This document shows, piece after piece, positions 2,747-54,884 of a stretch of 55,338 bases of DNA. Within the stretch, counting starts at the first letter, position 1. Each line of letters begins with the position of its first letter. The position numbers and the translations under genes are program-made. Origin of the DNA: Vulcanimicrobiota bacterium (GTDB taxonomy: Bacteria > Vulcanimicrobiota > Vulcanimicrobiia > Vulcanimicrobiales > Vulcanimicrobiaceae); assembly GCA_003161435.1 (NCBI GenBank), contig PMOS01000022.1, forward strand, positions 28,018-83,355, given 5' to 3'. The notes under the pieces were generated by a model that was not told the DNA's origin, did not search any database, and saw only the letters and a list, made by a program, of their open reading frames with translations.

Positions 2747-2767
2747 CAACCGCCGCTTCGCTCGCTG

Positions 2768-2826
2768 TCATCCTGAGCCTGTCGAAGGACGACTACCCCG
2801 GGTCGTGTTTCGCCTCCGCTCACCAT
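2768..2826. repeat. REP-like repeat pair
   Basis: Between the dehydratase and the RES gene lie TCATCCTGAGCCTGTCGAAG (2768-2787) and, in inverted orientation, TTCGCCTCCGCTCACCATGA about 20 bases further on. Related copies sit at 10487-10588, and a weaker one overlaps the stop of the gene ending at 9754. The common core is TTCG-N8-CTCAGNATGAC. This looks like a dispersed intergenic palindromic repeat; similar units occur in many high-GC genomes. Confidence 0.6.
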
Positions 2827-3356
2827 GACGGGGCGACTTTTCGGCGAGACGACTGTGCCGACGCTTGGGCTCGCGCCCGGACGAGCCGCTTGTCATAGGC
2901 GAAATCATCCAAGCTCATGACGACGCGAACGAAATTCCGATGCGCGGGATTGATCAGCACGTTGCGCTCGGGCGTTGCGATAGGGATGTGAACGGACGGT
3001 ACGACCAGCGCGAGCGAAGTGCCGCTGCGAATCCATTCGTCGCCGACTACGGCATCATTGTCGGGTGCCGGCACGAGATCCCAACCGGATGGCAACTCGA
3101 CGCCGATCTGTTCGAGCGTGCGGATCGAACTGTCCGGAATAGTCGCGGTCAGATAGAAGAGAGACGGCGGTGTATCCGCGTCGAAGTCGTCGACATTCAC
3201 GTGCGCGAGAAACTCCGCCATTGCCAGGGAGAGCGTCGTCGACGTATACGCCATGCGGGTGCCGACGCTCGACCATCGACCGCCGAACAAGAACGAACCC
3301 TCTCCGTCGAGAGGGTTCGTCGCGTACAGTCGATAGCCGATACGATACACGTCCAT
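2820..3356 (-). CDS. RES-domain toxin (NAD+-degrading)
   Basis: 178 residues matching the RES fold: YRIGYRLY near the N-terminus, GGRWSSVGTRMAYTS with the Arg of the R-E-S triad, and SLAMAEFLAHV with the Glu. RES toxins such as MbcT and ParT attack NAD+ and are neutralised by an Xre/MbcA-type partner. The upstream gene encodes such a partner and its stop overlaps this ATG (TGATG), so translation is coupled. A longer reading frame exists upstream, but the conserved fold starts at the ATG at 3356. Confidence 0.88.
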   Translation of the reverse strand: MDVYRIGYRLYATNPLDGEGSFLFGGRWSSVGTRMAYTSTTLSLAMAEFLAHVNVDDFDADTPPSLFYLTATIPDSSIRTLEQIGVELPSGWDLVPAPDNDAVVGDEWIRSGTSLALVVPSVHIPIATPERNVLINPAHRNFVRVVMSLDDFAYDKRLVRARAQASAQSSRRKVAPSW

Positions 3357-3802
3357 CAGCTGTAACCGCCGAGCAACGCCCTCCCGAGCACCGCTTCGAC
3401 TTGCCTTGCGCCGACATCGGTCTGCAATAAGCCGATCGGCACGGCGCCGCCCAGCGCCGCGTTCGGCTTGAGCAGCCACCGGCCGGCGGCGGCCGTCGAC
3501 CCGAGCGCCGCTTTGCCCAGCGCTATGACCGTCCCGAGCCGGACCGCGCGCTCGGAATCAACGAAACCCAAGCGACCGGATCGCTTGCGGCGGCTGAGCG
3601 TCGTCCGCGAGATGCCGATCCCCTCGACGACCGTCTTTTCGGACTGGCCGAGCGACTCGACGGCGTGGCGAAAAGCCGGAACCGGCATACCTTCGTGGAT
3701 GACCCGATCGAAGTCGAAGAACGACGTCAGCGAGCCCGGGCCAAGACCCTCCCGGCCGCCGAAGACCTCAATGACCTCTTCCAGGGGCGCACGCTGTACC
3801 AT
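3356..3802 (-). CDS. Xre/MbcA/ParS-type antitoxin of the RES module
   Basis: About 148 residues. It has an N-terminal helical region, a helix-turn-helix-like stretch (EGIGISRTTLSRRKRSGRL) and a C-terminal toxin-binding domain of the DUF2384 type (ALGSTAAAGRWLLKPNAALGG). The last part is the piece that plugs the RES active site. Start choice: an ATG at 3814 also exists, but a consensus -10 box lies at 3813-3818 on this strand, so the ATG at 3802 is the first one inside the predicted transcript, which would then be leaderless or nearly so. It probably represses its own promoter through the flanking inverted repeat. Confidence 0.85.
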   Translation of the reverse strand: MVQRAPLEEVIEVFGGREGLGPGSLTSFFDFDRVIHEGMPVPAFRHAVESLGQSEKTVVEGIGISRTTLSRRKRSGRLGFVDSERAVRLGTVIALGKAALGSTAAAGRWLLKPNAALGGAVPIGLLQTDVGARQVEAVLGRALLGGYS

Positions 3803-3842
3803 TTGGAGCCCCATTATAGCCCATTTGGTACAACCGCGGCAA
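3795..3842 (-). promoter_or_regulatory. Promoter and autoregulatory operator of the Xre-RES module
   Basis: On the minus strand a TATAAT box (3818-3813) follows TTGCCG (3842-3837) with an 18-base spacer. The -10 box is bracketed by TGTACCATTTGG (3795-3806) and CCATTTGGTACA (3821-3832), an inverted repeat in the outer seven bases. An antitoxin dimer bound there would cover the promoter. The site also lies 60-100 bases upstream of the divergent MFS gene. Confidence 0.65.
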
Positions 3843-3892
3843 GCCAACCCTCGGGATGCGCCTGCCGTGACCGTGCGGAAGAGGGGGCGGCG

Positions 3893-5173
3893 ATGAATCG
3901 TTGGGTGCAGATTGGGCTTGGGATCGTGTGCATGTTCATGATCGCCAACCTGCAGTTCGGCTGGACGGTGTTCGTCGATCCGCTCAACCGCGCCATGGGC
4001 TGGTCGCTCGCGGCGATCCAGGTTTCGTTCACCATCTTCGTGCTGGTCGAGACGTGGCTGGTGCCCTTCGAGGCGGCGCTCGTCGACCGCTTCGGGCCGC
4101 GCATCATGGTCATCTGCGGCGGGATCATCGCCGGGCTAGGCTGGGTCTGCGACGGCACGATCCACACGCTACCGGGCTTGTACGCGGGTGGCGTGCTGGC
4201 CGGGATCGGCGCCGGGATGATCTACGGCACCTGCGTTCCCAACGCGGTGAAATGGTTCTCGCGCAATCGCGGCCTCGCCGTCGGATTGACGGTCGCGGGC
4301 TTCGGCGCCGGCGCCGCGCTGACGGTGACCCCATTGGTGATGATGATCGAACGCTCGGGCCCGTTTCACACCTTCACCTTCTTCGGGATCGCGCAGGGCG
4401 CGGTCATCGTGCTGTGCGGTTTGTTTCTGGTGAGCCCGCCGCGCACGACGACGCACGACATGCTCGTCGGCGTCCGTTGTCTCCAAGGGATCGGCGACTC
4501 GACACCTGCGCAAACGCTGCGCTCACCGGTGTTCTGGGTGATGTACGCGACGTTCACGCTCGTCGCCGCGGGCGGTCTCATGGCGGTCGCGCAGTTGGCG
4601 CCGATCGCCAAGGCGTTCCACATCGCGAAAGCGCCGGTGCACGTCCTGTTCTGGACCGCGCCCGCACTGCTACTGACGCTTCAGCTCAACAACATCGTCG
4701 GCGGGATCGCGCGCCCGCTGCTGGGCTGGATCTCCGACCACGCCGGCCGCGAGAAGACGCTTGCCGTCGCGTTCGCCGTCGAAGGCGTGGGCGTGTGGGC
4801 CTTCAGCCGCTACGGCCACACGCCGGTCTCGTTCATCCTGCTCGCGGCACTCGTCTTCTTCGCCTGGGGCGAGATCTACAGCATCTTCCCATCGCTGATG
4901 CGCGACCACTTCGGTCAGCGCTACGCGGCGACGAACTACGGCGCGCTCTACACGGCCAAGGGCGTCGCGTCGCTGCTCGTCCCGATCTCGGCGGTCATTA
5001 CGGCCGCGACCGGCAGCTGGAGCGCCGCGCTGTACCTCGCTGCCGCGATGAATATCGTCGCAGCGATCTTGGCGATCGGCGTGTTATGGCCGATGCGCGT
5101 GCGCGAGATCGCGCGCTCGCGGGTACGAGATCCCGACCTGTCCATCGCAATCGAAAGCGCACTTCCGTCGTAA
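3893..5173 (+). CDS. MFS transporter, probable acid-sugar/organic-acid importer
   Basis: 426 residues with about twelve hydrophobic segments. DRFGPRIM after the second segment and GWISDHAGREKTLA in the second half are the MFS loop motifs; the layout resembles oxalate/formate antiporter-type carriers. Start: ATG at 3893 behind a purine-rich GAGGGGGCGG. It is the first gene of the operon that runs to 9754, so it likely imports the four-carbon acid sugar or a precursor that the downstream enzymes degrade. The substrate is inferred only from the neighbours. Confidence 0.88.
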   Translation: MNRWVQIGLGIVCMFMIANLQFGWTVFVDPLNRAMGWSLAAIQVSFTIFVLVETWLVPFEAALVDRFGPRIMVICGGIIAGLGWVCDGTIHTLPGLYAGGVLAGIGAGMIYGTCVPNAVKWFSRNRGLAVGLTVAGFGAGAALTVTPLVMMIERSGPFHTFTFFGIAQGAVIVLCGLFLVSPPRTTTHDMLVGVRCLQGIGDSTPAQTLRSPVFWVMYATFTLVAAGGLMAVAQLAPIAKAFHIAKAPVHVLFWTAPALLLTLQLNNIVGGIARPLLGWISDHAGREKTLAVAFAVEGVGVWAFSRYGHTPVSFILLAALVFFAWGEIYSIFPSLMRDHFGQRYAATNYGALYTAKGVASLLVPISAVITAATGSWSAALYLAAAMNIVAAILAIGVLWPMRVREIARSRVRDPDLSIAIESALPS

Positions 5174-5194
5174 GCACCCTCGAGGAGACCCTAC

Positions 5195-6307
5195 GTGGCC
5201 GTCACGTCCCCGGGCATCGTTGCAGCATCCGACATCCCGTCGTCCATCCCGAACAGCATGCGCGCCGCGGTGCTGGTCGCGCCGAGCGAGTTTCGCATCA
5301 TGGAGAAGCCCGTTCCCGAACCAGGACCGGGCGAAGTGCTGGTCAAGATCGCGATGTGCGGAACGTGCGGCACCGACCTGAAGATCCAGGTGCACCCGTT
5401 CCCCGGTCAGCCGCCGTTCGGAACGTTCACGCCGGGGCACGAATGGACCGGGACCGTGGTCGCGCTGGGCGATGCGGTCGACGAGTTCAAGGTCGGCGAT
5501 CGCGTCGCGATCGAAGCGCACAGCGGCTGCGGGCGCTGCGAGAACTGCGTGCTCGGCATGTACACGGCGTGCCTGAACTACGGCAACGTGCACAAGGGGC
5601 ATCGTACCAGCGGTTTCACCGCCGACGGCGGGTTCGCCGAGTACGCGATCCATCACGCCAAAGCGCTCTACAAGATGCCGGCCAACGTGTCGTGGGAAGA
5701 CGCAGTGCTCGTCACCACCGCCGGCACCGGCTTGTACGGAATCGACGCGACCGGCGGCTTCATCGCGGGTCAATCGGTCGTGATCATCGGCCCCGGTCCG
5801 GTCGGGTTGATGACGGTGCAGCTGGCGAAGGCGCTCGGCGCCGCGCAGGTGATCCTGGTCGGGACGCGCGCGAGCCGGCTCGAGTTCGGGACGCGGCTGG
5901 GCGCCGACGCGGTCGTCAGCTCGCGCGACGAGGATCCGGTGGCGGCCGTGCGGCGGCTCACCGACGGGCTCGGCGCCGATCTGGTGATCGAAGCATCCGG
6001 CGCGCTGGACACGCCGCAGCAGTGCGTCGAGATGGTGAAGCTGGGCGGAAAGATCCTGTTCCTCGCGTTCTACAAGGAGCCGGTCACCTTCGACCTGAGC
6101 CGCGCGATCCGTTCGGACGTGACGCTGTACACGACGCGCGGCGAAGGCGGCGGGAACGTCGGGCGCGCGCTCTCGCTGGCGGCGCAGGGGAAGATTCGCG
6201 GCGCCGAGCTGGTGACGCATCGCTTCCAGCTCGACGACATCATGGAAGGCTTCCGCGTCGTGCGCGAGCGCGACGGCGATCCGATCAAAGCCGTCTTCAT
6301 CCCGTAA
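5195..6307 (+). CDS. Zinc-dependent medium-chain alcohol/polyol dehydrogenase
   Basis: 370 residues. Catalytic zinc ligands are visible in MCGTCGTD and GHEW, the structural zinc site in CGRCENCVLGMYTAC, and the NAD(P)-binding loop in GPGPVG. GTG start at 5195 with GAGGAG seven bases upstream. It belongs to the threonine/sorbitol dehydrogenase type. In known C4 acid-sugar pathways the first oxidation is done by a beta-hydroxyacid dehydrogenase (LtnD/DenD); none is present here, so this MDR enzyme may fill that step or supply the acid from a sugar alcohol. That assignment is inference. Confidence 0.88.
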   Translation: MAVTSPGIVAASDIPSSIPNSMRAAVLVAPSEFRIMEKPVPEPGPGEVLVKIAMCGTCGTDLKIQVHPFPGQPPFGTFTPGHEWTGTVVALGDAVDEFKVGDRVAIEAHSGCGRCENCVLGMYTACLNYGNVHKGHRTSGFTADGGFAEYAIHHAKALYKMPANVSWEDAVLVTTAGTGLYGIDATGGFIAGQSVVIIGPGPVGLMTVQLAKALGAAQVILVGTRASRLEFGTRLGADAVVSSRDEDPVAAVRRLTDGLGADLVIEASGALDTPQQCVEMVKLGGKILFLAFYKEPVTFDLSRAIRSDVTLYTTRGEGGGNVGRALSLAAQGKIRGAELVTHRFQLDDIMEGFRVVRERDGDPIKAVFIP

Positions 6308-6312
6308 CGCAG

Positions 6313-7014
6313 ATGACACCCGAACCGACGACGCAGCCGCCGACCGTGACGCTGGTGCACGCCGTGTTGCCGGCGCTCGCGCCGATGCAGGCCGCGCTCG
6401 CGCAGGCGATCCCCGGCGTCCACATCCGGCATCTGCTCGACGAGGGGCTCAGCACCGAAGCCGAGCGTTACGGCGGCGTCACGCGCGCGTGCACCGAACG
6501 GATGCTGACGATCCTGGGCTTGGCGGTCGAAGCGCGCACCGATGCGGTGCTGCTGACGTGCACGGCGTACTCGACGATGGTACCGGAAGCGCGCACGCGC
6601 TTTCCCGGAACACCGTTGTACGCCGTCGATCAGGTGATGGTCGAACGGGCCGTCGCGCGGGCGACGCGGATCGGTGTGCTGGCGACGTTCGCCGCGGGTT
6701 TGCAGCAGCAGCAAGAGATGCTCGAGCGCGAAGCGGCGCTGCACGGGAAGCCGATCGAGATCGTACCGAGCTTGCACCCCGACGCGATGGCGGCGCTCCG
6801 CCGCGGCGATACGGCGGAGCACGATCGAATCGTGCTGGCGGCGCTGCCGGCGCTGATCGAGACGGCCGAGATCGTGCTGCTCGCGCAGGTGAGCATGGCC
6901 CGCGTCGCCGATCGCGTCCCGGCCGAGTACCGCGACCGCGTGCTGAGCAGCCCGCAGCTGGCCGCCGAGGCACTGCGTGACGCGCTCGGCATGGGCGTGC
7001 GCGCCGGCGCCTAA
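6313..7014 (+). CDS. Asp/Glu/hydantoin racemase-superfamily protein
   Basis: 233 residues with the racemase-like layout: a Cys in VLLTCTAYS (C83), GVLATF in the middle, and a second half-site at LLAQVSMARV, where the second catalytic Cys of true racemases is replaced by Gln (Q192). That rules out a standard two-base racemase mechanism. Members with this Q variant are found in acid-sugar operons, but I know of no established reaction. It could be an isomerase or lyase. It starts six bases after the dehydrogenase gene and ends nine bases before the isomerase gene. Confidence 0.7.
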   Translation: MTPEPTTQPPTVTLVHAVLPALAPMQAALAQAIPGVHIRHLLDEGLSTEAERYGGVTRACTERMLTILGLAVEARTDAVLLTCTAYSTMVPEARTRFPGTPLYAVDQVMVERAVARATRIGVLATFAAGLQQQQEMLEREAALHGKPIEIVPSLHPDAMAALRRGDTAEHDRIVLAALPALIETAEIVLLAQVSMARVADRVPAEYRDRVLSSPQLAAEALRDALGMGVRAGA

Positions 7015-7023
7015 GGACTCTGC

Positions 7024-7851
7024 ATGAAGCTCGCCTACATGATGACCACGCCGGAAGCCGGTCCGATGCCGCTGTGCTGGCACGGCGATGCGGCGCACGT
7101 CATGCGCCGCGTCGGCGAGATCGGTTACGAAGGGATCGAGCTGCAGGTCCGCGATCCCGACGCCTTCGACCACGCCGCGATCGCCAAGCTGGCGGCCGAT
7201 TCAGGGCTGGCGATCACCGCGGTCAGCACGGGGACGATCGGCGCGGCCGACAACCTCTACCTCACCTCGCCCGAACCCGAGACGCGGCGCCGCGCGATCG
7301 ACCGCTTCAAGGCCGTCGTGCGGCTGGGCGCCGAGTACGGCGTCGACGCGAGCATCGGGCGCTTCCGCGGAAGCACCAAGTTCGCGCCGGACCGGGCGAC
7401 CGCGTACGCCTGGCTGCGCGAGGCGCTCGACGAGGCGCTGCCGCTGGCGGAGTCGCTCGGCATACGCATCGTGCTCGAACCTCAAACGCGGTACATCGGC
7501 GACATGCTCAACACGATAGGCGAGACGATCGACTTCATCCGCACGTTCGACACGACGTCGCTCACGTACGAGGCCGACTTTCACCATCAGGCGCTCGAAG
7601 AACGCAGCCTCATCGCGTCGCTCGTCGAGGGACAGCGGAGCGGTTTGATGAGCTACGTGCAGATCAGCGACTCGAACCGTTCGGCGCCGGGCTCGGGAAG
7701 TTTCAACTGGGTCGATATCCTCTCGACGCTGCACGCGGCCGGCTACGACGGGTGGCTCGCGATGGAGTTCGCGCAGCACGGTGACAGCGACCGCGCCGCG
7801 CAGCAGGCGTACACGGTGGTGAAGGGCGCGCTGACGAACTGCGGGCTATGA
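7024..7851 (+). CDS. TIM-barrel sugar isomerase/epimerase (OtnI-like)
   Basis: 275 residues of the xylose-isomerase-like TIM-barrel (AP-endonuclease 2) superfamily. Metal ligands are recognisable in IVLEPQTR (Glu), YEADFHHQ (Asp, His), QISDSNR (Asp) and AMEFAQ (Glu). In DUF1537-type acid-sugar operons a hydroxypyruvate-isomerase-like protein, OtnI, interconverts 2-oxo- and 3-oxo-tetronate before phosphorylation by OtnK; this gene's position fits that role. Its stop overlaps the kinase start (ATGA). D-psicose/tagatose-epimerase-type activity is the alternative. Confidence 0.8.
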   Translation: MKLAYMMTTPEAGPMPLCWHGDAAHVMRRVGEIGYEGIELQVRDPDAFDHAAIAKLAADSGLAITAVSTGTIGAADNLYLTSPEPETRRRAIDRFKAVVRLGAEYGVDASIGRFRGSTKFAPDRATAYAWLREALDEALPLAESLGIRIVLEPQTRYIGDMLNTIGETIDFIRTFDTTSLTYEADFHHQALEERSLIASLVEGQRSGLMSYVQISDSNRSAPGSGSFNWVDILSTLHAAGYDGWLAMEFAQHGDSDRAAQQAYTVVKGALTNCGL

Positions 7852-9131
7852 GCGCGAACGAGCTGCTCGTCGGCGTGATCGCCGACGACTTCACCGGCGC
7901 GAGCGACATCGCGAATACGCTCGTGCGCCAAGGGATGCGCACCGTGCTGACCATCGGCGAGCCGCACGCGGACCGCGATTACGGTTCGCCCGACGCGTTG
8001 GTGGTCGCCCTCAAGACGCGCTCGATCGAGCCGGCGAGCGCAGCCGCGCAGTCGGTCGCGGCGCTCGACGCGCTGCGGTCGCGCGGCGCGCGCTGGGTCA
8101 TCTTCAAGTATTGCTCGACCTTCGACTCGACGCCCGCCGGCAACATCGGGCCGGTCGCCGACGCATTGCTCGAACGCCTGGGCGCGCCGTTCACCATCCA
8201 TTGTCCGGCGTTTCCGGCGAACGGACGGCGATTGTTCGGCGGGTACTTGTTCGTCGGCGACGTCCTGCTGTCGGAGTCCGGGATGCGCGATCACCCGATC
8301 ACGCCGATGCGCGACGCCAACCTGGTCCGCGTGCTGCAGGCGCAGACACCGCATCGCGTCGGCCGGATCGACTTTGACGTCGTACGGAACGGTCGCGTTG
8401 CGGTGGCGTCGGCGATGCGCGCGTCGGTCGACGCGGGGGTGCGGCACGCGATCGCCGATGCGGTATCCGACAACGACTTGCTCGCGCTCGGAGCAGGTGC
8501 GGTCGACGCGGAGCTGCCGCTGATCTGCGGCGGTTCGGGGATCGCGCTCGGGCTGCCGGCGATCGCGCGCGAACAGGGTCTGCTCGATGCGAACGCGAGT
8601 GCCGATGCGCTGCCCGACACGCCCGGAGCGGCAGCGATACTGGCCGGATCGTGCTCGACGGCGACGCGCGCGCAGATCGCGTTCGCGCACGACGCGCTGC
8701 CGGTGTTCGATTTGAGCGCCGGATCGTTCGACGAGCCGCGCGAGCGCGTCGCCGAAGCGCTCGCCTGGGCCGACGGAGCGCTGGGCGATCGGCCGATCTT
8801 GATCGTCGCTTCGGACTCACCCGAGCGGGTGAGCGAGAACCAGCGGCGGTACGGCGCCGCCGACGCGGCCACGCGCGTCGAGGGCGTGCTGGCGGCGATC
8901 GCACGCGGCCTGCGCGAACGCGGCGTGCGACGGTTCGTCGTCGCCGGCGGCGAGACGTCCGGCGCGGTGGTCGAGGGGCTCTCAGTCGACGCGCTGCAGA
9001 TCGGGCCGCAGATCGATCCGGGCGTTCCGTGGACGGCGACGCTCGACGATCCGCCGCTCGCGCTCGCGCTCAAGTCGGGCAACTTCGGCGGCGACGACTT
9101 CTTCATCCGCGCCTTTGCGAGCCACTCGTGA
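7848..9131 (+). CDS. otnK: Four-carbon acid-sugar kinase (DUF1537), 3-oxo-tetronate kinase
   Basis: 427 residues. The N-terminal substrate domain shows GVIADDFTGASDIAN, FKYCSTFDSTPAGNIGP and HCPAFPANGR, hallmarks of OtnK/DtnK/LerK kinases. The C-terminal nucleotide-binding half has AGSCSTATRAQI and VVAGGETSGAVVEGL. The family phosphorylates a 3-oxo-tetronate at the 4-position with ATP. It overlaps the isomerase (ATGA) and the aldolase gene (GTGA), so the three are translationally coupled. Choosing OtnK over DtnK rests on the adjacent class II aldolase gene. Confidence 0.9.
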   Translation: MSANELLVGVIADDFTGASDIANTLVRQGMRTVLTIGEPHADRDYGSPDALVVALKTRSIEPASAAAQSVAALDALRSRGARWVIFKYCSTFDSTPAGNIGPVADALLERLGAPFTIHCPAFPANGRRLFGGYLFVGDVLLSESGMRDHPITPMRDANLVRVLQAQTPHRVGRIDFDVVRNGRVAVASAMRASVDAGVRHAIADAVSDNDLLALGAGAVDAELPLICGGSGIALGLPAIAREQGLLDANASADALPDTPGAAAILAGSCSTATRAQIAFAHDALPVFDLSAGSFDEPRERVAEALAWADGALGDRPILIVASDSPERVSENQRRYGAADAATRVEGVLAAIARGLRERGVRRFVVAGGETSGAVVEGLSVDALQIGPQIDPGVPWTATLDDPPLALALKSGNFGGDDFFIRAFASHS

Positions 9132-9754
9132 AAGGCCGACACCGTGCCGCGGTGCGCGAGCTGTGCAAGGCGGGCCGAACGCTGAGCGCTCACGGGCTCA
9201 CGCCGGGAACCTCGGGCAACATCTCCGTGCGCGTGGAGCGCGGGTACGCGATGAGCCCGACGAACGCGTTCCTCGGTAGCCTAGAGCCCGAGGACGTTTC
9301 GCTGCTCGACGAGAGCGGCGAACAAATCGGCGGCCTCGAGCCGACCAAGGAGCGCGCGCTTCATCTAGCGTTCTACGAGCAGCAGCCTGAAGTGCGCGCG
9401 GTCGTGCACGTGCACTCGACCTACGCTGTCGCGCTGTCGTGCCTCGAGCACGACGACCCGGACAACGTGCTGCGACCGCTGACCCCGTACGCGATCATGC
9501 GCGTCGGCCGCCTCGCGCTCGCCCCGTACGCACGTCCAGGCTCGCCCGAACTCGTCGCAGCCGTAGCATCGCGCGCAGCCAACCACCGCGCAGTGCTGCT
9601 CGCCAATCACGGCCCGATCTTCGCCGCCGAAACGCTCGCGCAAGCGATCGCCGCAATCGAAGAAATCGAACAAGCCGCCAAGCTCCAACTCCTACTCGAA
9701 GGTCGCCCCATCCGCACCCTCACCCCCAACGAGATCGCCAACCTGTCACCCTGA
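9128..9754 (+). CDS. otnC: Class II aldolase/adducin protein, 3-oxo-tetronate 4-phosphate decarboxylase
   Basis: 208 residues. Zinc ligands of the class II aldolase fold are H94 and H96 (VVHVHSTYA) and H161 (LANHGP). TPGTSGNIS at residues 25-33 binds phosphate, and an acidic LEPTKE lies at 70-75. OtnC splits CO2 from 3-oxo-tetronate 4-phosphate to give dihydroxyacetone phosphate, so the operon ends in glycolysis. The GTG start at 9128 overlaps the kinase stop. L-fuculose-phosphate aldolase-type activity is possible, but the OtnK partner favours OtnC. Confidence 0.88.
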   Translation: MKGRHRAAVRELCKAGRTLSAHGLTPGTSGNISVRVERGYAMSPTNAFLGSLEPEDVSLLDESGEQIGGLEPTKERALHLAFYEQQPEVRAVVHVHSTYAVALSCLEHDDPDNVLRPLTPYAIMRVGRLALAPYARPGSPELVAAVASRAANHRAVLLANHGPIFAAETLAQAIAAIEEIEQAAKLQLLLEGRPIRTLTPNEIANLSP

Positions 9755-9780
9755 TCCTGTCGACCGCCGCAGTCGTTGCT

Positions 9781-10419
9781 TCAGCGAGCAGCATCCGCAT
9801 CGAGCGCGGCGGCGAGCGCTTCGAAGTCCGTGAACGGCCGGTACGGCACGTTCACATCGTCGAGGTACTGCGCAAGGGTGTCGCGCGCGAATACGTGCTC
9901 GGCTGCGAGCGCGGCGCATCGATCGGAGTACCCGTCGCCGACGTAGACGAAGGCGCCTTTCGGCAACGAACCGCGCTTGCAAGGTTCACCGCAGACGTCG
10001 CACTCCGAGTCCGACACCCAGCGGATCCGCCACCCGTCACGCGTCGCATCGGCGTGGTTCGCGCGAACGCGCGCCGTCACGCCTTCGCGCGCAAGAACGG
10101 GCCCGATCGTCTCGTGAGAGCTCGAAGACAGGATCAGCGGATCGAACCGCTCGACAAACGCCGCGAAGCCCGGCCGCACGCGAGCGTGCTCGACCAGAAA
10201 CGCCACGACATCGTCGAGCGGCACGGTCAGCATCGCGAACTCACGCTCCATCACTTCTCGATGCGTGATCGTCCCCGCCGCAAGCCCAGCATCCAACTCC
10301 GCCTCGAGCGGCTCGAGCACCGTCGCCAAAACGAAGTGCCGCAACGTGAGCATCAGCGTGTCCCGCTCGGTAACCGTCCCATCCCAATCTACGACGACTT
10401 GCACACCGACAAGTGACAC
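9781..10419 (-). CDS. HAD-superfamily phosphatase with CxxC-GEPC zinc-knuckle insert (MtnX-like)
   Basis: 212 residues. HAD motif I is VVDWDGT, motif II the Ser in ILSSSSHE, and motif IV GDGYSD. Between them CDVCGEPCKR looks like a four-Cys zinc site, as in MtnX-type and phosphoserine-phosphatase-like HAD-IB proteins. It is convergent with the acid-sugar operon and only 26 bases from it, so a shared pathway is not implied. The GTG start at 10419 is favoured; a second GTG at 10404 is possible. Substrate unknown. Confidence 0.82.
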   Translation of the reverse strand: MSLVGVQVVVDWDGTVTERDTLMLTLRHFVLATVLEPLEAELDAGLAAGTITHREVMEREFAMLTVPLDDVVAFLVEHARVRPGFAAFVERFDPLILSSSSHETIGPVLAREGVTARVRANHADATRDGWRIRWVSDSECDVCGEPCKRGSLPKGAFVYVGDGYSDRCAALAAEHVFARDTLAQYLDDVNVPYRPFTDFEALAAALDADAAR

Positions 10420-45140: not shown

Positions 45141-45968
45141 ATGGTAACTGTCCGTTTGCCTGCGCACGCGTTGTGCGTGGAGCGCGGGGGCGGCGGGGTA
45201 TCCGGCGTCGAGGGGTACCGCACGCGCCTCACGGGGCTCGATCTCGCCGAATCGGAAGCGCTCTCGCTCGCCGGATGGTCGACCGTGGCCGATGCGCTCG
45301 GGGTCGGTTCGGCTGCCGCCGGCGCGGAGCGGAAGCTGCTCGCCGCGATTCCGCCGTCCGCCGCGACCAAAGCGCGGCGCACGCGAGAGCGCATTCACTT
45401 CGATCTCGCTCGCTGGTACGATGCGACCGCAACCCCACAGCAACTTCCGCAACTCGCACGAGCGGTCTGGGATCAGCGGAGGATCCGCATCGACTACACG
45501 AGTTGGACCGCTCGCAGGAAGCGCGAGGTCGACCCCCTCGGGCTCGTGCTGAAAAATGCGACCTGGTATCTCGTCGGCCGCCACCTCGGAAAAATCCGCA
45601 CGTATCGCGTCTCCGAGATTGCGAGCCTCGAGATACTCGAAGGCACGTTTACGGTGCCGGACGATTTCGATCTGCCGGCTTACTGGGATGCATCGAAAGC
45701 GCGATTCGAGGATAGCCTCACTCGCAGCAGCGCAACGCTTCGATTATCGGAGCGAGCCGAACCTTTGCTGGCGAACCTCGGTGCACGAGCCGCGCGGCTG
45801 GTGCGGGATCCGCTCAATCCGAGCGTCGTGACCGTGCCAATCGAATCGACCGACAAAGCCGCGCGCGAGTTCCTGGCGTTCGGCGACGCGATCGAAGTGC
45901 TCGGGCCACCGGGGCTGCGCACGCGCATTGCAGACCTCGCGACCGCTACAGCAGCGCTCTACTGCTAG
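45141..45968 (+). pseudogene. WYL-domain transcription regulator lacking its N-terminal HTH
   Basis: 275 residues in frame. The WYL domain is complete: QRRIRIDYTSW, REVDPLGLVLKNATWYLVGR, RTYRVSEIASLEIL, and the C-terminal extension (WCX) follows. The expected 60-70-residue winged HTH is missing: upstream DNA (45000-45140) shows only out-of-frame traces such as ALAERRSKRTFRN, and the frame begins in the linker (ERGGGG, EGYRTRL). It could be a ligand-sensing relic or a truncated protein still made from ATG 45141. WYL regulators often control DNA-repair or defence loci, and a nuclease gene follows. Confidence 0.65.
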
Positions 45969-46201: not shown

Positions 46202-47632
46202 ATGGCCGCGAAGAAATCTACGCATACGAAACACCAGAAGCCCATGCGTACCGCGACATTGTCTACCACATTCACTCATACCGCACTGAAGCCGATTCAA
46301 TTTGGCGACGAAACTTCCATCCTCGAATATGACTTGATCCTCTTCGACCCAGTTAGGTCGCACGTCAACTACGAGCATCAATACCTGGATGGTACGTACA
46401 AAGGTAAGCCACTTCTAAGCAACGATGGCTCCTTTAAATTCTTAGAAGACTTCCGACGGCGTGCGATCGAAATTCGCGAGTTTCTGGAACTCGGTCGTAT
46501 CATGATTTGCCCTACACCGGAGCCGCAAAATGTCTGGGTTTGGACCGGCCGCTATGAACATTCAGGCACCGGCCGGAATCGGCAGACAACCCGAATCGTC
46601 GAAGAGGTTGACCTCCTCGCTATATTTCCGGTGGCCATTAAAACGATAGCAGCTGCAGGCGATAGCATATCATTCGGCGGGAACAACACCGCCTTCAAAG
46701 TCTTTCTTGCGGACAATACAGGCTCGCTAAGCTATCGCGCTTACTTCAAAGACGAAGTTGGCGAACCGGTGTTGTTTCTGGATAAGACTTCACGGTCAGT
46801 GGCACTAGATATCAGCGTCGGGAAAGGTCACCTGGTTTTTGTTCCTTTCGTGAAGGCATCTCAGGAATTCGTCGACAACGCGGCCTGGCAGGGGGCAGTT
46901 AGTGCATTTATCGTATCTATCCAGAGCCTAGCCGCGACAATCACGGATCAGTCGGAAGAGGCTGAGCTCCCGGATTGGACCAATGGCTACGCGGCGGATC
47001 GCGAACGTCAATGCTTGGCGAGCCTCATTCGGGACGAAGCTAAGGCAGCAGCATTACAAAGAGATGTCGATGCCAAGAAAGCTCGCCTGGAGGAGTTCCG
47101 CAGGCCAAAGCGCCTGTTCACGACAACCGGACTGGCTCTCGAGCGGATCGTTGCAGAGGTATTTCGGAATTGGGGTATTGTCGTAAGGGAGCCAACTGGA
47201 AATCGTACCGATCTCATTATCGAACATCATAAACGCCATGCCGTCATCGAAATCAAGGGGGTCACCGGCTCGGCGGCGGAGAGCCATGCGGCGCAGTTGG
47301 AAAAATGGGTCAGCGAATATATCACCGAGCACGAAACGATTCCAAAAGCGATCTTGATTGTGAACGCATATCGAGACAAACCTATTGATGAGCGCCCAGA
47401 TATAGTGTTTCCGACACAAATGCTGGCATATGCTAGCAAGCGAGAGCAGTGTCTCGTAAGTGGCTTTCAATTGTGGGCGCTCAATGAATGGTGTGCCGGA
47501 GATCAAGAGCGGATCGCAAATGTCCTCGATCTGTTGTTTTCAACAATCGGGATTTTAGTAACTCCTAAAGACGTCGCTGACATGCTCGCGGTAAATGCTA
47601 CGACGAGCGCATCTGTCCGTACTCTGGGCTAA
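46202..47632 (+). CDS. Standalone PD-(D/E)XK nuclease-like protein, putative defence gene
   Basis: 476 residues in three parts: an N-terminal domain of about 250 residues (SILEYDLILFDP, YEHSGTGRNRQTTRIVEEVD), a coiled coil at about 275-300, and a C-terminal nuclease fold with LERIVAEVF (E314), RTDLIIE (D337) and AVIEIKG (E350, K352), the PD-(D/E)XK pattern of Mrr/RecB-type nucleases. The N-terminal family occurs sporadically in bacteria without a proven role. Base composition is visibly less GC-rich than its surroundings, which suggests transfer. No methylase gene is adjacent, so a classical restriction pair is unlikely. Confidence 0.75.
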   Translation: MAAKKSTHTKHQKPMRTATLSTTFTHTALKPIQFGDETSILEYDLILFDPVRSHVNYEHQYLDGTYKGKPLLSNDGSFKFLEDFRRRAIEIREFLELGRIMICPTPEPQNVWVWTGRYEHSGTGRNRQTTRIVEEVDLLAIFPVAIKTIAAAGDSISFGGNNTAFKVFLADNTGSLSYRAYFKDEVGEPVLFLDKTSRSVALDISVGKGHLVFVPFVKASQEFVDNAAWQGAVSAFIVSIQSLAATITDQSEEAELPDWTNGYAADRERQCLASLIRDEAKAAALQRDVDAKKARLEEFRRPKRLFTTTGLALERIVAEVFRNWGIVVREPTGNRTDLIIEHHKRHAVIEIKGVTGSAAESHAAQLEKWVSEYITEHETIPKAILIVNAYRDKPIDERPDIVFPTQMLAYASKREQCLVSGFQLWALNEWCAGDQERIANVLDLLFSTIGILVTPKDVADMLAVNATTSASVRTLG

Positions 47633-48790: not shown

Positions 48791-49261
48791 TTGAGTGCAA
48801 CAAAAATCGGAAGCCGCGCCGCGGGAGCCCAAAATGCGAAAGTAGGCCGCGCGCCGGAAGCGACGGACCTTGCTAAGCTCGAGCGTGCCCGTGCCGAGCG
48901 CGCTCATCGAGCTGCGGTGCAGCCGTTCCCCAAGGTCGTCGACGATCTCGTCAAGCTCGTTGGAGCTCCGCTGGTCGCCTACATCACCGGCGTAAGCGAG
49001 ACGCGGGCGGTCCGTCAGTGGATCGCCGGCGATCGCGTTCCGCACCCATCGACGCGAGCGAAGCTCCAGGTCTCACTTCACGTTGCTCGGTATCTGGCGG
49101 AAGAAGGCGAAAACGGTGCAATCGAAGCGTGGTTCCAGGGGCTGAACCCATCGCTACGCGATCGGGCGCCGGCGGAGTTGATCCGCAACGCCGAAGGAGT
49201 AGAATTCCCGTCGCTCGCTCGTCAAATCCTAGCAGCTGCGAAGGAATTCGCGAACAGCTAG
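48791..49261 (+). CDS. Xre/MbcA-type antitoxin of a second RES module
   Basis: 156 residues. An Ala/Arg-rich N-terminal tail of about 40 residues precedes an HTH-like part (LVAYITGVSETRAVRQWIAG, RVPHPSTRAKLQV) and a C-terminal helical region with ENGAIEAWFQGLNPSLRDRAPAELI, the toxin-binding part of MbcA-like antitoxins. TTG start at 48791 behind CGAGGAGG. It ends just before the RES gene. It differs strongly from the first antitoxin (3356-3802), so the two modules did not arise by recent duplication. Confidence 0.8.
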   Translation: MSATKIGSRAAGAQNAKVGRAPEATDLAKLERARAERAHRAAVQPFPKVVDDLVKLVGAPLVAYITGVSETRAVRQWIAGDRVPHPSTRAKLQVSLHVARYLAEEGENGAIEAWFQGLNPSLRDRAPAELIRNAEGVEFPSLARQILAAAKEFANS

Positions 49262-49275
49262 AGCCCGATGGACTC

Positions 49276-49959
49276 GTGGTGGTGCAACCGCCATCACGAG
49301 TCTTTCGCGTAGGGAAGTCTCCCGATGCGTGGCTGCGGAAGCCACCATCGCGTGGGTCTGATCCGACGTTGAACCGTTACGATGATCCGCTGGGCATCTA
49401 CCACACCGTCTATGCCGCGTCAACGCCGTACGGCGCGTACATGGAAACGCTCGCTTCGCTGCGCCCGGCGCCCACCATCGATCTGGCAACGAGCGTCCTG
49501 GCCAACGAACCCGGCCTACGGGGCACGCCACCGCCCGGGTTGGTTACGAATTGGATCGAGCGGCGCCATATCGGCAAAGCTCAACTCAACGGGGTGTTCG
49601 TGGATATCGGGGCCAGCGAGTCGATCGCGTTATTGCGGCGTCGCCTGGCCGACCGGTTCGCGGCGCTCGGTGTCGTCGAATTCGACCTTTCCGCACTGAC
49701 GACGGCTCGCCGAGAGGTCACGATGGAGATTTCGCGGTTCATCTTTGAGCTGGAGTACCGCGAACAGCGCCGTTTCGACGGGATTTGCTACCCGTCGCGA
49801 TTGGGGCGGAACATTCTATGTTGGGCGATCTTCGAGGACGACCATCCGGCGTGCATCACTAAGAAGCAGTCGCAGCCAGTAAATGCAACCGACCCCGAGC
49901 TTGTCGAGGTGCTCGGCCATCTGCGGATCTCGCTCGGACCAATCTCTGCAGCCAGCTGA
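49276..49959 (+). CDS. RES-family NAD+ phosphorylase-like toxin (second module)
   Basis: About 227 residues from the first of three GTG codons (49276, 49279, 49282). RES features: SRVFRVGKSPDAW with the first Arg, NRYDDPLGIYHTVYAASTPY and GAYMETLASLRP with the Glu, and a distal GICYPSRLGRNILCWAIFED. This form matches the RES phosphorylases that degrade NAD+ with phosphate. The gene begins 14 bases after the antitoxin stop. A weak hairpin at 50052-50072 may end the transcript. Confidence 0.82.
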   Translation: MVVQPPSRVFRVGKSPDAWLRKPPSRGSDPTLNRYDDPLGIYHTVYAASTPYGAYMETLASLRPAPTIDLATSVLANEPGLRGTPPPGLVTNWIERRHIGKAQLNGVFVDIGASESIALLRRRLADRFAALGVVEFDLSALTTARREVTMEISRFIFELEYREQRRFDGICYPSRLGRNILCWAIFEDDHPACITKKQSQPVNATDPELVEVLGHLRISLGPISAAS

Positions 49960-51179: not shown

Positions 51180-52094
51180 ATGGCTTCGACGAACCCGACC
51201 GGCGTTCCGATTACAATCCCTCAAGATGTGCTCGACGTGCTGCGTCGAATCTTCAGTGACGGTAACGCGGAAGTGGCGAGCATGCTCAGCCGTCAGCCGA
51301 TGAGTCGCGAGGATCATCTCGATCAGGCGCTCATCACCTATCTCGACCGACAGTCACCGGAGGTCGCGCCGCACTCCGGGTGGATCGTCGATTGCGAGAC
51401 CCACTTTCTCGGTAGCGGGCATCACTTCGGCGTGTGGGAGATCGCGGACATTGGCGTTCTCGTCATTTTGCGCCACGGCAACACGGTCATCTGGAGCAAG
51501 GTCGCGATCCTTCAATCGAAGCGGCTCTTCCCGATTGGCAATAAACACGATGAAGATGAGGAACGTGCGCGTTGGAGGTGGGGCTTCGGCCGGCTCCGCG
51601 AGGCGTACGATGTAGCAGCGACGCGGCGGACCTACGAGTTCACAGAAGACTCCCGATACGCATCGCTCGACCTCAATGCGGACCAGGCGCGGCGCATCGA
51701 CGCGTACCAGGGCGAGATGACTATACCGGTTCACTACCTTTTGTATAACCCGGTAGTGATTCCGTGGTCGCGCGCGGTTCCGGTCGCTGGCCCGACAGTG
51801 CTACCGAACAATGATGTCGGTTGCAGGATCGTCCGCGCTCGCCAGATGCTTGCACTTCACGACTCGGTCGCCGTGCCACGATACGCGGACGTGCGTGGTA
51901 TTGCACACCCACACGAACACAGCCCGTTCTGCGCCGGTTGGCGGCTCGAGGACTTCGTCGTTACCTTGCTACTTGGTTGCCACGAAGGCAAAGTGCTGGA
52001 TGCTTCGCTCGACAACGCGATGGAGCTATTGTTCTACCGTCGGACTGGCCCAATCTCGGCCGCCTTCGCGGTGAACATTCAAGTCGCCGAATAA
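51180..52094 (+). CDS. Putative QxK-type restriction-endonuclease-fold protein
   Basis: 304 residues of no family I can name. Residues 40-115 fit a PD-(D/E)XK core of the QxK variant: Glu/Asp in MSREDHLDQALITYL, WEIADIGVLVIL (E87, D90), then KVAILQSKRL (Q112, K114). The second half has Cys/His pairs (VRGIAHPHEHSPFCAGW) and ends LLFYRRTGPISAAFAV. The ATG at 51180 is chosen because the longer upstream frame is basic low-complexity sequence. It lies 15 bases before the PIN gene on the same strand. A nuclease role is inferred from motif spacing only. Confidence 0.6.
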   Translation: MASTNPTGVPITIPQDVLDVLRRIFSDGNAEVASMLSRQPMSREDHLDQALITYLDRQSPEVAPHSGWIVDCETHFLGSGHHFGVWEIADIGVLVILRHGNTVIWSKVAILQSKRLFPIGNKHDEDEERARWRWGFGRLREAYDVAATRRTYEFTEDSRYASLDLNADQARRIDAYQGEMTIPVHYLLYNPVVIPWSRAVPVAGPTVLPNNDVGCRIVRARQMLALHDSVAVPRYADVRGIAHPHEHSPFCAGWRLEDFVVTLLLGCHEGKVLDASLDNAMELLFYRRTGPISAAFAVNIQVAE

Positions 52095-52109
52095 GGTATC
52101 CAAAACAGC

Positions 52110-53238
52110 ATGAACGCCAACGATCCCGAAGACCAGACGCGGCAGTTCCTGTCTAGCATTCACCGTGACAACGCCGCCGCACCGATCGTCGGCTCTGACG
52201 CGATGGGCGCTTTCTTAGGATCGTCGCTCGACGCGCTGTTGGGCGAGGCGCTTCCGCTCGTGGTTGACGCGAACATTTTCCGCAACGACATCGGTTATGT
52301 CTGCCGTACCGGACGGCGGACAACCTTGGTCACAGCGACCAATGCGCGCATCTTTCGCCTTTATTGCGCGCAACATGTGTACGATGAAGTCGAGGAGCAC
52401 GCGGCCGAGTGGGCGACGGACATGGGACTCGATACGGACGCGTATCTTTCCGCTTGGCGCGAGAACTACGTGCCATTAGTGCGTCGCGTGTACACCGACG
52501 GCATGGATTCGTTGCTTTCGCCGGCGGAGCGTCGGCGTGTCGATCGCCTGCGCTTAATGCTGGACGTCGACGACGTCCCATCCGCGGTGCTCGCGCTCGC
52601 GACAGGGGCCTTCTTCGTCTCGGAGGACGGAGCACCTCATGAGGCAGTTTACGGGCGAACGCTCAGCGCCGCGGAGCGGCGCGCTTGGCTCCCGATCCTT
52701 CATGCGGGCGGAGATTCTGCGGAGCTGACGCGCCTCGTCGCGTTCACGGCGGCCGTTCCGGCCTTCGCTGTCATAGGAAGCGCTTACGTCGCGCGACGTC
52801 TGTGGACGTTCTCGCCTCCATTGCTTCTGGGTCTCGTGGCGCTCGCGGCGGTACTGGCGACGCGTGTTCCGTACGATCGCTATCGCGCCAGCGGAGAGGC
52901 CATCCTCACGGCAATATCCGTATTGAGCGCGCATGTGTACCAGCCGCATTACGAGGCGCTCGAGCGCTTCAGATCCGCGCTACCGCCGTTCCCGCCCTGG
53001 GAGGATCTTGTCGCGGATCTATCGCGCGATGCGGCGCTAGCGCGGGCATGCCTTTATCGCCTGGCACGTTCCCGTCGGGTCTCCACTGAAAGCCGGGGAA
53101 CTCGCAGACGAACTGCCTGCCCTCGGCATCGGCCAGGCGCCTCAGCGCGTTGGGAAGGTTCTTCGCCAGTACGAATGCTTCTTCGAGCCGTATCGTGGCA
53201 TCTGGCAACTGGGCTCGCCCATGTGCAATGTTCGGTGA
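52110..53238 (+). CDS. Membrane-anchored PIN-domain protein (frameshifted near the 3' end)
   Basis: About 375 residues if one frameshift is allowed. The PIN nuclease acidic residues are in LVVDANIF (D53), VYDEVEEHA (E93-E96), LDVDDVPSAVLAL (D152-D155) and FFVSEDG (D173). Two membrane segments follow at about 208-228 and 235-253, then a helical tail. Near 53070 the frame must shift by +1: beyond it the coherent reading is SPLKAGELADELPALGIGQA and FFEPYRGIWQLGSP, ending at TGA 53236. The unshifted frame runs on to 53453 with Arg/Thr-rich noise. A C-terminal truncation or a sequence error are both possible. Confidence 0.65.
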
Positions 53239-53561
53239 GAATGGCCGACAAGCGCGGGACCACCGACGGCCTGCGTCCGTACCGTCATACTCGTACGCCG
53301 TGGCGTATTCGCGACGCAACTGTGACCATCGACCTTGCGTCGCCATCGAGAGGTTCTTCGCCGTTGTCTTACGCGACTTGCCGACCGACGGAGCCCACAG
53401 ACCCGTCTTGCAACGAAGCAGGCCACGGCCGATGTGACGTTCACCTGTTCTAGACGGGCTCCCACGGCGTTGGCGTTCCGGTTGACGTCGCGTGATAATG
53501 CAACGAACGACTTCTCTCGCTACCGGCCGTTCTCAGTTGTAGACGGAAAGGGGTCTTTACG
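53239..53561. other. Stretch without a recognisable gene
   Basis: Only overlapping low-complexity frames are seen on both strands. The last 40 bases should hold the promoter and ribosome site (GGAAAGGGG at 53544-53552) of the membrane-protein gene that follows. Confidence 0.4.
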
Positions 53562-54884
53562 TTGAACACGACGGCTAACTTCATTGCAAAGGTGCTTGCT
53601 GTTACTTTATGGATCGCGGCTTGCACCACCATTGCATTGGAAGCCGCGATCGAGGACACCCTTCGCCCTAAGTGTCCTGGTTTGTTGCAGGGAAGCTACA
53701 TTAGTCTCGGTCCGTTGGAGCAAGCCGGTCTCACGCCCAATGCGAGGCGAAGAACCTTTGACATAGAGAGCATAGCGTGGTTAGCAATCGACCATGCGCC
53801 GAGCTGCAGATGCAAAGCGGCACCGCAGCCCGTGATCAACGAATCAGCGGCACTCGATTGTGGCGCAAAAGGCGGCGCGCCGCAGCAACCCCTTGCGGCT
53901 GAGGACGCGCGGCTTTCAATTTGGATGGCAACCATCCCGGGCCTAAACACACGCGAGACGTCACTTACCATTTGGTTGACAGTACTTACAATTTGGTTGG
54001 GATCAAAGCAAAAAGCCCGACGTTCCGTGGCGGCGTTGCTCCGCTCGGTCTTTTTCTCGGTCCTGGTGTTTCCACTGTCGTTCGCATTCGCCTACGTCGC
54101 TGCAATTACGGCCGTCTTAATGCTTGTCGGCTATTGGGAGGTTGCGATGCTCAAGACAACCGTGCTCTGGTTCTTCGGGACGGCTCTCGGAACCCTATTC
54201 AACAGGAGAGCTGGGAGCCCCGACTTTCTCCGTAAGCTCATATCGCATAACGTCGCACTCGCAGCCTTCATCGAATTCATTGTCAATCTATATACCTTCC
54301 CTCTCTTGCTCGAGCTCGTCTTCGTTCCCCTTGTTACGCTCTTAGCTTGCCTACAAGCTCTTGGCAGGACGAGCCGCGAGTTCGTCGGCAAGCCAAAGTA
54401 CGACTTGCTTCGAAATACATTGAGTGGTTGTCTCTCAGTCATCGGGCTTCTAATTCTTGCGTATACGATCACCGAAACGATTCAGCACTGGCGGGATCTG
54501 GTTCAGCCCGAGCAAGTCAAAGAGTTTTTCTTGCCACTGGTCCTCGTTGTCACATTTATCCCTTACCTTTATCTCTGGCAATACATTGCCGCGCTTCAAA
54601 CAACACTTCACATGACGAAGTACGGACTAGGCGCTGACAACCAGAAGTTATTCCAATTTGCTCGAGCCCGAATTATCGCTGCAATAGGCCTCGACATACA
54701 GAGCGCGGAGCTCTTCGAAAGGGAATTCAGATACCGTCTTTGGGGCGCAACGACCGAAGAAGAGGTCGTAGCGGTTCTCGACGCGTTTCGAGGCGAACAG
54801 AAGAAGCACCGCATTGGATGGGCCAAAGGAAGGACTGGTCATGAAGGGTCCTTCCCGCCGGACGGTGGCAGCGAAAATCCCTAG
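53562..54884 (+). CDS. Polytopic membrane protein, accessory
   Basis: 440 residues. An N-terminal hydrophobic helix (residues 8-30) is followed by an extracytoplasmic loop with three or four Cys (RPKCPG, PSCRCKA, ALDCGA). About seven further membrane segments span residues 130-350, and a charged cytoplasmic tail contains LFEREFRYRLWGATTEEEVV. TTG start with a good ribosome site. Base composition is less GC-rich than the core genes. No family named. Its place after the QxK and PIN genes suggests a membrane partner or effector of that set, which is inference. Confidence 0.65.
   Translation: MNTTANFIAKVLAVTLWIAACTTIALEAAIEDTLRPKCPGLLQGSYISLGPLEQAGLTPNARRRTFDIESIAWLAIDHAPSCRCKAAPQPVINESAALDCGAKGGAPQQPLAAEDARLSIWMATIPGLNTRETSLTIWLTVLTIWLGSKQKARRSVAALLRSVFFSVLVFPLSFAFAYVAAITAVLMLVGYWEVAMLKTTVLWFFGTALGTLFNRRAGSPDFLRKLISHNVALAAFIEFIVNLYTFPLLLELVFVPLVTLLACLQALGRTSREFVGKPKYDLLRNTLSGCLSVIGLLILAYTITETIQHWRDLVQPEQVKEFFLPLVLVVTFIPYLYLWQYIAALQTTLHMTKYGLGADNQKLFQFARARIIAAIGLDIQSAELFEREFRYRLWGATTEEEVVAVLDAFRGEQKKHRIGWAKGRTGHEGSFPPDGGSENP

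Follow-up and report, generated by a model that had tools for sequence, protein, structure and literature searches.

The window analysed here, a 55,338-nucleotide stretch of contig PMOS01000022.1 from a Vulcanimicrobiota bacterium, carries two closely spaced genes on the forward strand, which we call A and B. It is the terminal part of its contig, in an assembly of 3.83 Mb that comprises 44 contigs and is 83.4% complete. Gene A (51180–52094, +) encodes a 304-residue protein, predicted to be a nuclease of the PD-(D/E)XK type; gene B begins at 52110, 15 bp past the stop codon of A, with an AAGG stretch preceding its ATG, and encodes a PIN-domain protein with a predicted membrane hairpin. A first-pass annotation had proposed that these genes, together with the open reading frame (ORF) that follows, constitute an undescribed three-gene defence system. 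The pattern supported by our analysis is another one, in which B and its relatives occur with variable partners, most clearly behind the genes of the Gabija system.

Gene A belongs to a family of 660 homologues to which no name is attached. Among the 120 best of these, the window's own sequence included, E87, D90, Q112 and K114 are each present in all 120 aligned sequences and E44 in 119. The acidic residues and the lysine stand in the order of the PD-(D/E)XK motif, and E44, E87, D90 and Q112-x-K114 make up the candidate active site; a glutamine at the D/E position ahead of x-K is also a feature of Mrr-like nucleases. The 120 best homologues contain no Pfam domain, the PADLOC models, PDC-S18 included, do not match A, and all or most members of the family lack sequence matches in Pfam, PADLOC and the PDB. 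The AlphaFold2 (AF2) model of A has a predicted local distance difference test score (pLDDT) of 85.8 and a predicted template modelling score (pTM) of 0.87; on a second look at its structural comparison we take 31 of the 48 rows to be PD-(D/E)XK enzymes, the top match not being one of them. Judged by the model, PD-(D/E)XK is the best-supported fold, and we infer nuclease activity for A.

Gene B is frameshifted near 53.08–53.09 kb, where the family model matches in two pieces and in different frames. The first frame (52110–53090, +; model positions 2–328, with the alignment in agreement) encodes the PIN domain, the predicted membrane hairpin and the beginning of the C-terminal domain, and the shifted frame (53080–53238, +; model positions 325–373 at 53080–53226, the stop read from the sequence) encodes its C-terminal piece, modelled as a putative winged helix. 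The tail of the listed 447-residue ORF, formerly taken for the C-terminus of B, is therefore spurious, and intact homologues measure about 375 residues. Frameshifts at different positions break B in 3 of 14 complete loci, namely the window, L037 (genome G107) and L086 (G569); this would fit a costly effector, and could equally reflect assembly error. The AF2 model of the homologue P0124 shows a VapC-like PIN fold together with a long helical hairpin. In P0124 numbering the PIN domain covers residues of about 47–203 (window 52248–52718, +) and the hairpin, predicted from the long helices of the model and from hydropathy, residues of about 193–290 (52686–52979, +). The Pfam PIN_2 model scores 18.2 bits on the window's B, under its cut-off of 22.4, and matches 17 of 18 aligned members at E ≤ 1 (best 3.8e-6), while the relative at L090 clears the Pfam cut-offs for PIN_3 and PIN. 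In 22 aligned sequences D53, E93, D155 and D173 are each invariant and D152 occurs in 20, with two gaps; at least one hydrophobic 19-residue window falls in the hairpin region of all 22, and two such windows in 12.

The claim of the first-pass annotation that both proteins are nuclease-like is thus upheld, as is its E87/D90/Q112-x-K114 motif in A, from which only E44 was missing. Its acidic set for B (D53/E93/D152/D173) is conserved as well, D152 apart from the two gaps, and the invariant D155 can be added to it. Likewise, its two membrane helices are borne out as a hairpin in the P0124 model, with a second hydrophobic window in 12 of the 22 sequences; we agree that PIN proteins do not usually carry such a hairpin.

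The third ORF (53562–54884, +) encodes a membrane protein in which a crude hydropathy scan finds six hydrophobic windows, as opposed to the eight helices counted before. Being the next gene 3' on the same strand, it could be read as the last member of an A–B–membrane protein system. However, it starts 323 nt past the true end of B, it finds only itself among 7,998 scored candidates, it occurs in 1 of 149 genomes of the phylum (its own, with the 148 others lacking it), and it does not stand beside B relatives in the loci that were read. All collections that were searched leave the third gene without a relative, and linkage of A with B is not conserved either; the three-gene unit is therefore unsupported, and we consider it very improbable. 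On our reading the downstream membrane gene would not belong to the system.

Do A and B themselves form a unit? They are separate conserved families. B was not found at any of the 24 A loci that a single scan of one-per-species genomes recovered (flanks of up to 10 kb, shorter at contig ends), nor in any of 20 A-bearing genomes (20 of the 24 loci were used, a set without positive control). Within the 149 genomes of the phylum A is present in two and B in six (one of them weak, E 5.7e-4), and both occur together only in the window's own genome. In the phylum set at most 13 candidates per genome were scored for B, and in four further genome searches the number was 4 to 6, so that absences in these are soft; one of the four returned the five S1 genomes again, together with G349, G449, G464 and G469, the last two of which another of the four had already yielded. 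The first-pass annotation had named lack of conserved linkage in other genomes as what would refute its system, and as no such linkage was found, the system as proposed fails on its own terms. The A–B pair as a unit is nonetheless plausible. A second genome with both families is hinted at by an A relative (P0024, 44% identical) and a B relative (P0124, 82% identical) whose contigs have the same length, 1,590,745 bp, this match in length being the sole link between them.

The distribution of A bears on the same question. Records bearing A include Latescibacteria, Rubrobacter, Planctomycetes, Proteobacteria, Bacteroidota, Acidobacteria-type and actinobacterial ones, and one relative, P0027, bears the name Candidatus Elarobacter. 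Five plasmid records and three viral-collection contigs carry A; none was found in phage records. On a Rhizobium plasmid the gene is surrounded by metabolic genes, and at other loci the surrounding 2.5 kb contain AbiE, methyltransferase, PglX or candidate defence genes. PADLOC matches are many among the 109 ORFs within 2.5 kb of the 24 loci and likewise many among the 110 ORFs at distances above 5.5 kb (the families considered being the first 25 of 110 and the first 25 of 86), and no contrast in defence-gene density between near and far ORFs was seen. Since the far genes are also defence-rich, we claim only that A tends to reside in defence-rich regions. As a separate observation, a remote member of the A family (E about 1e-18; L041, 9725–10747, genome G068) lies just 3' of a 1,323-residue protein with an NPPF methylase motif recognized by eye, and at L011, too, A stands behind a long ORF that contains an NPPY motif.

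These surroundings, defence-rich out to 10 kb, the occurrence of A without B in many contexts (once amid metabolic genes) and the lack of conserved linkage are what would be expected if A and B were unconnected in function, each a defence or selfish gene working alone, and had come to lie next to each other in a defence island. The 15-bp spacing, on the other hand, speaks against this, and so does the behaviour of B elsewhere.

Fifteen B loci were read: the window, four of the same phylum (L037–L040), five of Streptomyces (L064–L068), and five (L086–L090) from actinobacteria and one Pseudomonadota genome. A PADLOC-recognized gene stands immediately 5' of B in five of them. Four of these are Gabija loci. 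Gabija consists of two genes, the OLD ATPase/TOPRIM nuclease GajA and the UvrD-like helicase GajB; in four Streptomyces genomes (L065–L068) GajA, GajB and B follow one another on the same strand, the gap to B being about 30–180 bp. PADLOC E-values for GajA and GajB are 6.7e-226 and 1.6e-177 at L065, 4.9e-204 and 2.8e-111 at L066, and 6.6e-229 and 1.4e-192 at L068; at L067 GajB is matched at 1.6e-110 and GajA is identified by its 83.4% identity to that of L066. The GajA proteins of L065, L066 and L068 retain their own TOPRIM domain. Between L066 and L068 the B proteins are 85.1% identical, as against 29.2% for GajA and 24.9% for GajB. Closely related B genes behind two deeply diverged types of Gabija argue for exchange of partners, with the slot behind GajB being kept or regained by selection; this is our strongest result, and it comes from four loci of a single genus. 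In the fifth case, the Pseudomonadota locus L090, B shares 1 nt with the PDC-S18 gene immediately 5' of it (6.8e-151), and this gene in turn overlaps an RT_UG5-nitrilase DRT reverse transcriptase gene. That locus is part of a dense stretch (1442–10392, genome G959) with a restriction-specificity-like gene, a 309-residue protein, cyclase-like by eye, the DRT, PDC-S18 and PIN-hairpin genes and HipB/HipA-like genes.

At L039, in a genome of the same family as the window, B follows a HerA gene pair made up of a HerA gene (6.7e-20) and a 465-residue gene, the latter 307 bp away; at L037 B overlaps a 343-residue gene and a DUF2971/PDC-S31 gene lies downstream; at L086 the end of a 320-residue gene falls on the start of B or no more than about 40 bp from it; and at L038 a 140-residue gene lies 474 bp 5' of it. 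The 343-, 320-, 140- and 465-residue proteins have no Pfam match at E ≤ 0.01 and no PADLOC match, and by eye and position only they appear nuclease-like (GIY-YIG-like at L038, NurA-like at L039). B is tail-to-tail with a PDC-M54A-like protein (4.9e-21, partial) at L064, has no evident partner at L040, L087 and L088, and is cut off by the contig end at L089. Among more distant relatives, no recognized nuclease or helicase gene stands directly 5' at nine further Streptomyces PIN-hairpin loci, as judged from crude ORF calls by eye and no PADLOC scan. A plasmid search (PLSDB) with the B of L065 matched six genes at 26–29% identity, and no annotated nuclease or helicase gene directly precedes these, in an annotation that is incomplete and had no PADLOC scan; at one of them, L101, an AAA-family ATPase gene lies 71 bp 5' on the same strand. 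No plasmid records were found for P0124, P0138 or the B proteins of L090 and L039 and no phage records for the B of L090, and the 33 pattern matches to B in viral_contigs include no relative.

The fifteen distant loci without a recognized partner again favour independence of the two genes. B, however, repeatedly stands directly behind defence genes or overlaps them, and it was retained behind two diverged types of Gabija; weighing both sides, we regard such independence as a serious but rather unlikely explanation. The general reading of the region as defence-related fits these observations, with relatives of B behind Gabija in four genomes and overlapping PDC-S18 in one, though not in the form of the system first proposed.

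What could be the role of B at these loci? Its PIN fold near VapC and the helix-turn-helix (HTH) genes upstream would suit a VapBC-like toxin whose antitoxin is A or a nearby HTH protein. Such an assignment seems improbable to us, as A is a conserved 304-residue nuclease-like protein and no small antitoxin, the relatives of B are partnered by helicases and nucleases, and B possesses a hairpin and an additional C-terminal domain. Even less probable is that B acts as a regulator, or as an immunity factor, by restraining or localizing the adjacent DNA nuclease, with the PIN domain of B as a scaffold: the predicted winged-helix C-terminus, the membrane anchor and the invariable position of B after the nuclease/helicase gene in the Gabija cases are compatible with it, but the conservation of four acidic PIN residues in all 22 sequences would be needless in a scaffold.

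We hypothesize instead that A and B form a tight unit in which B serves as a second-line PIN effector, predicted to be membrane-tethered, that is portable and swapped among DNA-acting defence modules, and we rate the chances of this explanation as about even. B would probably act as the plug-in second weapon of what looks like a mix-and-match defence cassette. Under this hypothesis A, like GajAB or PDC-S18, would detect or cut invading DNA, while B would be anchored in the inner membrane, its PIN domain facing the cytosol, and would stay silent as long as its partner is not engaged. Engagement or overload of this DNA-acting partner might then activate B, perhaps by way of the C-terminal domain of B, and B would cleave RNA in the manner of VapC toxins and thereby arrest the growth of the infected cell. 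The activity of A, that of B and the coupling between them are what we infer. A broader version of the idea, which we advance more tentatively and would not yet favour, holds that B is a general fail-safe module with a winged-helix reader behind otherwise unrelated systems (Gabija, PDC-S18/DRT, HerA pairs and the new A nuclease), converting failed defence at the DNA level into growth arrest at the RNA level at the membrane, and that A represents a new family of defence nucleases distributed over many phyla.

If true, several unrelated DNA-acting defence systems would share a single effector; this would account for the third gene behind some Gabija pairs, and provide a direct test of layered immunity, with DNA cutting first and RNA destruction as the backup. 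The A family would be a large unlabelled group of nucleases (660 proteins) missed by the PADLOC models used, and a membrane-held PIN nuclease raises the testable question of its activator. Among the titles and abstract openings that searches of open PubMed Central (PMC) papers brought up, none concerns a membrane PIN gene behind Gabija or HerA, which is weak evidence of novelty, and PF10130 in conjunction with a PIN domain had no match in the open PMC literature.

Elsewhere in the window, a two-gene unit (48791–49959, +) encodes a 156-residue protein with a weak Pfam match to the Xre/MbcA/ParS C-terminal domain (E 0.0067, below the cut-off) and, after it, a protein with a RES domain (E 1.4e-9); the unit is probably a RES-Xre toxin–antitoxin pair. 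A 476-residue protein (46202–47632, +) contains a D...E-x-K-like stretch by eye and has no Pfam match; it adjoins a WYL-domain regulator (45141–45968, E 1.3e-18). Of the neighbours listed in the first-pass annotation, the two HTH genes and the RES gene upstream pass Pfam, but the supposed nuclease of 476 residues does not.

How does the locus compare with known systems? A was compared with the PD-(D/E)XK nucleases Hjc, RecU and SwaI and the SPARDA nuclease, from which its family is set apart by its paucity of sequence matches. The likeness to VapC of VapBC lies in the PIN fold and acidic residues, whereas B, at about 375 residues, has a predicted membrane hairpin and a C-terminal domain unlike VapC; moreover, no small antitoxin gene is recognized adjoining it, the preceding gene being A, with the HTH genes 5' of A. 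PIN domains are known from other defence proteins: in DS-3 and DS-5 the PIN catalytic residues are required for protection against phages (PMC13092281), DS-3 being a single protein with a split PIN and DS-5 a PIN protein with a DUF5830/AcrIF4-like protein, and no membrane hairpin is mentioned for either in the text consulted, unlike B. In BREX loci PIN endoRNases are reported among backup effectors and as partners of OLD-ABC modules (PMC12839542). The resemblance there consists in a PIN nuclease beside OLD-type defence ATPases, and the difference in that PIN replaces the usual TOPRIM nuclease in the BREX modules, while L065, L066 and L068 add PIN to a TOPRIM-bearing GajA. PDC-S18/DRT offers a parallel in gene order, as PDC-S18 directly precedes the B relative of L090 just as A precedes B in the window, A itself matching no PDC-S18 model. 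With respect to Gabija, the PIN gene is an addition to the two-gene system, being the next gene after GajB at L065–L068; in the window neither GajA nor GajB lies beside B, and A and eight other window proteins scanned match neither. We view the locus as a form of PIN effector attached to nuclease-based defence, in which the partner of B would be A, a member of an unlabelled nuclease-like family.
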